Part shown: in pieces, positions 152-4,572 of the stretch
Layout: the number at the start of each line of letters is the position of its first letter
How positions within the stretch are numbered: the stretch's first letter is position 1
Assembly: GCA_946481475.1 (NCBI GenBank)
Contig: CAMLOB010000317.1
Coordinates: 1 to 5,483, forward strand
Length of the DNA stretch: 5,483 nucleotides
Reading direction: 5' to 3'
Origin: an uncultured Chlorobiota bacterium
GTDB taxonomy: Bacteria > Bacteroidota > Kapaibacteriia > OLB7
Position numbers and translations under genes: made by a program
Notes under the pieces: generated by a model
Seen by the model: the letters and a program-made list of their open reading frames with translations, nothing else
Database searches by the model: none
What the model was told of the DNA's origin: nothing

Positions 152-1477
152 TTATTTCTCAAGCCGTGCGTCAAGCAACTCCATTGCATACCCCCGAAGG
201 GCCTCATCGCCGATGTGCTCGATAACCTCGGCGGCAAAGGCATAGGTCAGCATCTTCCGTGCATGCTCCTTCCCGATACCCCGCGCCCGAAGATAGAAGA
301 TCGAGGTCTCGTCCAGTCGACCGATCGTAGCGCCGTGAGTACACTTCACATCGTCGGCAAAGATCTCAAGCTGCGGTTTCGTGTCGATCTCCGCCTCGTC
401 CGACAGCAGCAGGTTCATGTTCGACTGCACCGAGTCGGTCTTCTGTGCATCCTTGCGAACAAAGATCTTGCCGTTGAAGACGCCGTGTCCGTTTCCGCGA
501 AGGATTCCCTTGTAGAGTTCGTGGCTCGTACAGTTCGGCACCGCGTGGTCGATCGAGGTGTGGCTGTCGATCAACTGATCTTCCCCCACCAGATACAGTC
601 CGTCGATCGCCGCATGTCCCCCCTCCCCCTGCAGAACCGCCCACGGATCGTTCCGGGCGATCCTTCCGCCGAAGGAGAGCGTGTTGTTGTAGTAGTTGGC
701 GTTCCGCCCCAGTCCGGCCCAGGACGTTCCGATATGGAACGCATCGGGACTTTCATGCTGAAGCTTCACGTGCCCGAGATGAGCATTCTCTCCCACCACG
801 GCTTCGGCAACGGCATTGGTCAGATAGGTCTCTCCCGGTTTTCCGGTAAACTCCTCGACAACTGTCGCTTCGGATCCCGATTCGGCGATCAGCAACGTGC
901 GGGGATAGGTCACCACCGGCTGGTCCGAGGAGGTGGTCAGATAGAGGATATGAACCGGCTTCTCCAGCTTCAGGTTCTTCGGAATGTAGACAAACGCTCC
1001 GTCACGAAGGTGTGCGGTGTTCAGCACGGCAAAGGGATGTTCGAATCCGGCTCCGTACCCGGCGATATGCCTGGTCACCAGCTCGGTATGTTCGCGAATC
1101 GCCGAGACGAGATTTGCCGCGATAACCCCTTCGGGAAGCCCTTCAACCTCCGATTGTTCCGGGACAAAAAATCCGTTGAGGAAGACAAGCCGGAACGCAT
1201 CTCCCCGAAATCCGACACCCCCTGAAAAAAGGGATTCAACACTCTTCTCCTCCCGTGCCAGAACCGGTCTGAAACGGTTTCGGATAACCGGAAGGACGTT
1301 CGTGTACTTCCATTCCTCATGCTTCGTTGTCGGGAATCCGGTCTCCTCGAATCGTCTGATCGACTCGGTCCGCACCCCTGCCAGCGGTCCCTCGGCATCC
1401 CCGTTCAGCGAACCCCGGAAAAGATTGAAGGCATCGAGGAATTGCCGAACGTTCTCTGTAGTGTATTTCTTGCTCAC
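152..1477 (-). CDS. sufD: SufD, Fe-S cluster assembly scaffold protein
   Basis: SufD pairs with SufB in the cytosolic SufB-SufC2-SufD complex that builds Fe-S clusters for transfer to apoproteins. The 441-residue product has the expected length. An N-terminal helical part contains FPTTKHEEWKYTN (48-60), a segment typical of SufD. A central beta-helix core follows, and a C-terminal helical part (about 395-440) carries the SufB/SufD family ending. The segment DDVKCTHGATIGRLDE (375-390) holds Cys379 and His381, which appear to match the Cys/His pair around E. coli SufD His360, implicated in cluster assembly. The start is GTG (1477-1475). No ATG, GTG or TTG lies in frame between it and the sufC stop at 1547, although that frame stays open throughout. 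No Shine-Dalgarno sequence precedes the GTG closely; a GGAGG-like run lies about 60 bases upstream. The gene ends in TAA. Confidence 0.96.
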   Translation of the reverse strand: MSKKYTTENVRQFLDAFNLFRGSLNGDAEGPLAGVRTESIRRFEETGFPTTKHEEWKYTNVLPVIRNRFRPVLAREEKSVESLFSGGVGFRGDAFRLVFLNGFFVPEQSEVEGLPEGVIAANLVSAIREHTELVTRHIAGYGAGFEHPFAVLNTAHLRDGAFVYIPKNLKLEKPVHILYLTTSSDQPVVTYPRTLLIAESGSEATVVEEFTGKPGETYLTNAVAEAVVGENAHLGHVKLQHESPDAFHIGTSWAGLGRNANYYNNTLSFGGRIARNDPWAVLQGEGGHAAIDGLYLVGEDQLIDSHTSIDHAVPNCTSHELYKGILRGNGHGVFNGKIFVRKDAQKTDSVQSNMNLLLSDEAEIDTKPQLEIFADDVKCTHGATIGRLDETSIFYLRARGIGKEHARKMLTYAFAAEVIEHIGDEALRGYAMELLDARLEK

Positions 1478-1546: not shown

Positions 1547-2332
1547 CTACGCCGTCTCGGCCACGCTCGTCTCACCGGCATGATCCTTCACCCAGTCATA
1601 CCCCTTCTCCTCAAGCTCAAGAGCCAGTTCCTTCCCGCCCGACTTGATGATCCGCCCGTCGTAGAGAACGTGAACAAAATCCGGAACGATGTAGTCGAGC
1701 AACCGCTGGTAGTGGGTAATCATCAACGTCGCATTGTCCGGACGTCTCAGCTTGTTTACCCCGTCAGCCACAACCCGAAGGGCATCGATGTCCAGTCCGG
1801 AATCGGTCTCGTCGAGAATCGACAGCATCGGCTCCAGGACAGCCATCTGGAAGATTTCGTTCCTCTTCTTCTCTCCGCCGGAGAAGCCTTCGTTTACCGG
1901 TCGGTTCAACAGTTCCTTCGGAATATCGAGAACCTCGGTCTTCTCACGGATAAGACTCATGAAGTCGGCCGCATCGAGTTCCTCCATCCCCCGATGTTTC
2001 CGCACGGCGTTCAGGGCCGCCTTCAGGAAGTACATGCCGTTGACTCCGGGAAGTTCCACCGGATACTGGAACGCAAGGAAAACACCCTCGCGTGCACGTT
2101 CCTCCGGATCGAGTTCCAGAAGGTCATGCCCCCGGAACCTCACGCTCCCCTCGGTTATCTCGAAGGCTTCGTGACCGGCCAGAATCTGCGCAAGCGTACT
2201 CTTGCCCGAACCGTTCGGTCCCATAATGGCGTGAACTTCCCCCGGATTGATCCGCAGGCTGATCCCCTTCAGGTTTTAGTTCCCCTCCACACTGGAGTGG
2301 AGTTTGTTGATGTAAAGAATTGGCTGTGACAT
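1547..2332 (-). CDS. sufC: SufC, Fe-S assembly ABC-type ATPase, interrupted by an in-frame TAA at codon 19
   Basis: SufC is the soluble ABC-type ATPase that binds SufB and SufD and drives their conformational change during cluster assembly. From ATG (2332-2330) the frame runs 261 codons to TAG, near the usual SufC length of about 250. It opens with MSQPILYINKLHSSVEGN, typical SufC, then hits TAA at codon 19 (2276-2278) and continues with NLKGISLRINPGEVHAIM. Downstream are the Walker A motif GPNGSGKST (38-46), Q-loop Gln89, signature FSGGEKKR (150-157), Walker B LSILDE (170-175), D-loop SGLD (178-181) and switch His207. No frameshift is needed, so one codon breaks an otherwise intact gene. An ATG at codon 37 (2224-2222) could start a 225-residue protein that keeps Walker A but lacks the first beta strands. 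A base-call error, a true nonsense mutation or internal initiation all remain possible. No Shine-Dalgarno sequence precedes the 2332 start. Confidence 0.9.
2276..2278 (-). other. In-frame ochre stop inside sufC
   Basis: The codon reads AAC-TAA-AAC-CTG-AAG-GGG on the minus strand. SufC proteins usually have an E-I-L-K-G-like run here, so the stop replaces a residue that is often Glu (GAA to TAA needs one base change), and the next residue is Asn where Ile or Val is usual. TAA is the normal terminator of sufD and of thiE in this window, so general reassignment of UAA to an amino acid is unlikely. Confidence 0.9.
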
Positions 2333-2403: not shown

Positions 2404-3918
<1,515 letters not shown>

Positions 3919-4158: not shown

Positions 4159-4572
4159 ATGACGATATACGAGGTAAATGTCAGAGTCCTCACCGAAATC
4201 GCCGATGAGTACGAGATCTGGCTGAACGATCATATAGAAGAAATTCTGCTGATCGACGGGTTCGAATCGGCCGAATGGTTTGTTGTGGAGGAAGACAAGG
4301 AGACGAAAGATCTGGAGGAAGCCGTACGACAGGCCGTGCGGCTGGATGAGTCGGTGCCGGCCGAGATTCGCGAGGCGGCCGCATCACCGGTCGAGACCCG
4401 CCTCTATTCCATTCAGTATCGGCTTCGCGACCGGGCAAGTCTGGATCACTACTTCAACTTCCACGCCGAGAGATTGCGTCAGGAAGGGATCGAACGGTTC
4501 GGCACCAAATTCGCCGCCACCCGCAGAGTGATGAAGCTCTATCGCATCTACGAAACGGCAACCGAAAGATAG
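4159..4572 (+). CDS. DUF4286-like small protein of unknown function
   Basis: The 137-residue product begins TIYEVNVRVLTEIADEYEIW and later has TRLYSIQYRLRDRASLDHYF (about 77-96) and HAERLRQEGIERFGTKFAAT (about 99-118). This order (beta strand, helix with a Trp, a Y-S-I-Q-Y strand, then H-x(8-10)-RFG-K-F-A) matches my memory of the DUF4286 family, small proteins of roughly 100 residues with no known role. A charged stretch (about 42-75, rich in Glu, Asp, Lys, Arg and Ala) seems to be an insertion relative to the family and may form a helix. No signal peptide or membrane segment is visible. I chose ATG 4159 because the family match begins right there. The frame is open back to a TTG at 4012, but those 49 residues look unlike the family and overlap the inverted repeat. 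No Shine-Dalgarno sequence is evident. Confidence 0.82.
   Translation: MTIYEVNVRVLTEIADEYEIWLNDHIEEILLIDGFESAEWFVVEEDKETKDLEEAVRQAVRLDESVPAEIREAAASPVETRLYSIQYRLRDRASLDHYFNFHAERLRQEGIERFGTKFAATRRVMKLYRIYETATER

Follow-up and report, generated by a model that had tools for sequence, protein, structure and literature searches.

A nonsense codon in the sufC gene of an uncultured bacterium is very likely a local error in the sequence record

The in-frame TAA that interrupts sufC in the 5,483-nucleotide stretch of DNA analysed here (the window) is very probably a local error in the record rather than a mutation, whether it arose in sequencing, in assembly or in later handling of the record. We favor this reading because a database SufC with no stop, P0002, is found on seven contigs and because all the protein-level differences between it and the window's SufC fall within 14 codons. 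On this view about five positions would be wrong within some 40 bases (2274-2314) of a sufC that is otherwise correct, and in the organism itself SufC, which is the ATPase component of the SufB-SufC-SufD scaffold, is most likely produced in normal form. There is a general caution in this: when a single record shows a nonsense codon in a core gene of some uncultured bacterium, comparison with near-identical sequences should precede any proposal of pathway loss, recoding or unusual translation.

Judged by its sequence, the interrupted gene is unmistakably sufC, encoding the Fe-S cluster assembly ATPase. It occupies 1547..2332 on the minus strand, starts at the ATG at 2332-2330 and consists of 261 codons plus a TAG stop. 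Translation of the minus strand showed that the TAA at codon 19 (2276..2278) is its sole internal stop, and it is this codon that deprives the record of the single uninterrupted reading frame expected of SufC, which P0002 has. The original prediction, that SufC sequence continues in the same frame on both sides of this TAA and that the ATPase motifs downstream of it are intact, was borne out. Codons 1-18 align in that frame to the N-termini of SufC proteins, and the open reading frame downstream of the TAA (1547..2224, minus strand; 225 aa from the ATG at 2224, without the first 36 residues) by itself reaches 316.5 bits with the SufC model TIGR01978, exceeding the cut-off of 212.8, and 331.5 against a second SufC model, NF007134, which is below that model's cut-off of 400. 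This frame begins at the Walker A loop, and residues 37-47, 151-159, 173-184 and 206-212 form invariant columns in an alignment of 31 SufC sequences, blocks that we take to be the Walker A, signature, Walker B and H-loop motifs of ABC ATPases. The neighbors are also those expected of SufC, as the gene lies between sufB (2404..3918, 504 aa) and sufD (152..1477, 441 aa, with a GTG start and a TAA stop), all on the minus strand; sufB and sufD score above the cut-offs of TIGR01980 and TIGR01981, respectively, and both are free of internal stops.

We searched about 5.8 billion proteins with the window's SufC frame, entered with an X at the stop, and considered the best 120 of 8000 scored candidates, among which none had the window's truncated length. 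P0002, a SufC of 261 aa, is one distinct sequence on seven contigs (sources lgn and ena), which may stem from few samples. It differs from the window's SufC at five of 261 codons (7, 10, 13, 19 and 20) and agrees with it at the other 256, so that past codon 20 the two are the same at 241 of 241 residues. The proteins encoded by the neighboring genes have close counterparts as well. SufB agrees with P0241 at all 504 of its residues, an identity that is possibly in part a self-match because P0241 (11 members, 4 contigs, listed with no source) may include the window's own record, and the final 258 residues of SufD equal P0133. Over its full length, SufD reached at best 77% among the matches listed, none being near 100%. 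The closest known suf genes are those of Candidatus Kapaibacterium and related Bacteroidota/Chlorobi lineages: the best named SufD among the matches listed, at 77%, is that of Candidatus Kapaibacterium sp., and a named SufC match among those listed, at 83%, is from a Chlorobi bacterium. The longest contig is 7993 bases for both P0002 and P0241, which hints that the two may be encoded together on one contig of that length. As far as the proteins tell, the window and the source of P0002 would thus represent the same population, with the difference between them limited to about 40 bases. P0133 itself is peculiar: it is a protein of 273 aa from a 1250-base contig, and its first residues could not be aligned to the SufD proteins compared, as if the contig were broken or chimeric.

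How unusual is it that five differences should lie so close together? All of those seen at the protein level between the window's SufC and P0002 are confined to one short tract of otherwise identical sequence, codons 7 to 20 (2273..2314, minus strand), and their clustering is far from random. When five codons were drawn at random from the 261 of sufC, 8 of 400,000 trials put all five into a span of 14 codons, and when they were drawn from the 1023 codons compared in SufC, SufB and part of SufD, none of 400,000 did. The residues in the tract are themselves atypical. In a set of 119 homologs (P0002 to P0120, without P0001, an odd duplicate of 418 aa), what the window has at codons 7, 13 and 20 is absent throughout, and its residue at codon 10 is found in one. 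By comparison, the 14 closest homologs each have 0-7 unique residues overall and 0-2 within their first 20, and P0002, when set against the other 118 homologs with the window left out, has three unique residues, all of them beyond residue 20. Were P0002 removed from the comparison, the window would gain three unique residues outside the cluster; this uniqueness is invisible in the full set because P0002 equals the window there. Called proteins, moreover, hold no stops by construction, and the stop therefore cannot appear in a list of them. Given these two limits, codons 7, 13 and 20 carry our argument, and we make no claim that the gene's only unique states lie in the cluster. As for P0001, it is encoded on a 2682-base contig; after a SufC that is almost complete it has another without the Walker A part, the two being joined at a short shared stretch. 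It is either a genuine tandem fusion or a chimera in which assembly merged two metagenome sufC genes.

The anomaly thus spans more codons than the original prediction could see. Its suspicion that more than one base near the stop departs from the family pattern proved correct, in that codons 7, 10, 13, 19 and 20 all differ from P0002, and the clustering of these differences within 14 codons supports its hint of a local sequence error. By its own account a sense codon at 2276-2278 in related genomes would speak against the nonsense codon, and P0002, which has no stop there, is such a sequence. It was also right that an Asn stands beside the stop, at codon 20, but not that Ile or Val is usual at that position, since all 119 homologs have Ile there.

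The other homologs in the protein database likewise have sense codons at this position, but because called proteins cannot contain stops, a fairer control comes from relatives at the DNA level. Among loci fetched by SufD, 73 of 80 carry a SufC match, and the DNA of 132 loci yielded 119 SufC matches, of which 106 are distinct and 105 cover codon 19. Two stops occur within the 119 matches, both at the C-terminal end (L026 and L093), and none of the 106 distinct matches has a stop ahead of that end. Of 391 genomes searched at the level of the class, 344 yielded SufC matches (E 1e-90 or better). The best SufC among these genomes is 84% identical to P0002, and no genome close to the window was found among the 391 drawn from the class. 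Eight of the SufC rows listed from that search were flagged "1 TAA" or "1 TAG" and were therefore suspected of internal stops, but none of them has a stop inside its SufC match. The intact P0002 matches the solved SufC chains 2zu0_C, 11mp_A/2d3w and 2d2e_A over approximately residues 5-250, whereas the window's record departs from known SufC by the TAA at codon 19 and by four unusual residues around it. Among the papers listed on sufC and premature stops, none, judged by title and abstract opening, concerns a natural sufC nonsense allele. Carriage of the suf genes on a plasmid was considered and rejected, as the 13 plasmid records that match the sufB part do so at 60-80% identity, none of them over 80% of the query.

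What kind of error could have produced such a tract? One route, offered as an example, is that the low-quality end of a single read entered a metagenome contig with little coverage. Each of the five differences can be explained by one substitution, a transversion, with no insertion or deletion, as far as can be deduced from the residues, and three of the five deduced changes would belong to the class in which G on the coding strand is misread as T, the other two not. According to one study, Illumina errors rise and accumulate near read ends, and in one Illumina data set G was mostly misread as T (PMC4787001). The window resembles the read-end errors described there in that it has substitutions only, within about 40 bases, with three of five in the G-as-T class; it differs from them in that the other two changes are off this pattern and the GG motif given there is not obvious here (PMC4787001). 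The overall read error rates reported there are 0.0021 and 0.0042 per base (PMC4787001), and at such rates five errors in 41 bases would need an exceptionally poor read.

Could the cluster nevertheless be real? We consider it unlikely that one strain truly has a null or damaged allele of sufC, produced by a multi-base mutation cluster or by early gene decay. Such an allele might have arisen by error-prone repair or by a template switch, in a strain that uses another Fe-S system or that is transient and unfit, and the stop and the four other changes do, after all, stand in the record. The cost of such an allele depends on what else the cell has: according to PMC6006206, SUF no longer functions in vivo once sufC has been deleted, and it is essential wherever there is no other system. 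We therefore considered the Fe-S assembly genes of the nearest order, taken as the order of the genome with the best SufC in the class-level search, of which five genomes, their completeness not given, were searched. Three of the five have one SufC and a single NifU_N scaffold gene 2.7-3.0 kb away on the same contig. In such SUF-bearing relatives SUF appears to be the sole scaffold of its kind, and loss of SufC should consequently be costly. These three genomes fall below the IscS cut-off, yet each has two to three lower-scoring desulfurase matches, and as the cut-off is strict (it was reached by one of 14 control genomes) their failure to reach it says little. The other two genomes (G032 and G051) have no SufC at E 1e-40, have an IscS above the cut-off and carry one NifU_N gene each, a stronger match than in the three SUF genomes. 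That two of five genomes lack a SufC match at this limit and have ISC-type genes indicates that SUF is dispensable to some members of the wider group; replacement between SUF and ISC inside one order is possible, and this speaks for a null allele. However, decay would scatter changes, and the 241 residues after codon 20 are those of P0002, as the compared part of SufD is that of P0133; SufB also equals its counterpart, an entry that possibly includes the window's own record, and neither sufB nor sufD is interrupted. The changes are not spread over the gene and the neighbors are not decayed, as they would be for a pseudogene. A 9-base direct repeat (89% alike) does flank the stop, at 2263-2271 and 2281-2289, but two-copy repeats so short often occur by chance and the five changed sites lie outside it, and the sole inverted repeat found nearby (2380-2394) lies outside the cluster. 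We also rejected template switching from a local donor: with up to three mismatches allowed, the 20- and 24-base tracts found no match other than themselves, and for the 12-base core there was a single additional match, with two mismatches (shuffled sequences average 0.14 matches, and 3 of 200 reach two). That a real cluster kills or truncates sufC in a natural strain in which sufB and sufD are intact and which lives on through an alternative Fe-S pathway or a truncated, restarted SufC is, we consider, decidedly improbable. A real allele would be informative about how SUF can be lost in a group in which some relatives use ISC-type genes in its place.

Alternatively, the stop might be genuine and SufC still be made, either because the stop is read through or because translation starts again beyond it, which we regard as very improbable. 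In addition to the ATG at 2224, there are non-standard start codons in frame just past the stop, and a purine-rich run, GGAGGGG, precedes the stop; these could presumably serve a restart. Yet the purine run encodes SufC residues that are common to P0002, a restart would cost at least the first 19 residues, or 36 if it took place at the ATG at 2224, and neither restart nor read-through explains the other rare residues around the stop. TAA ends sufD, and the SufD relatives end at the same residue in five of six aligned sequences and three residues later in the sixth. The same facts weigh against the idea that this organism has a modified code in which TAA specifies an amino acid, to which we give hardly any credence. 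The frame is indeed open on both sides of the TAA, as it would be under reassignment, but TAA is used as a stop, ending both sufD and thiE (the latter cut by the window edge), and SufD relatives stop at or near the same position. There are, in addition, no internal stops in the four other genes examined (sufB, sufD, the DUF4286 gene and thiE), and the SufC proteins of the three nearest-order relatives read by the standard code. Among the three options that had been offered at the outset (a wrong base in the assembly, a strain with a damaged SufC, or an unusual way of making the product), the first is the one that P0002 and the cluster favor, whereas unusual expression found no support.

Two further features of the window lie beside these genes. 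Past sufD, at 1-118 on the minus strand, is the start of a further gene that is cut by the window edge; the 41 residues tried gave no Pfam match, and we take them to resemble the N-terminus of the cysteine desulfurase SufS. On the plus strand at 4159-4572, the DUF4286 gene (PF14114) encodes a small protein and points away from the suf genes.
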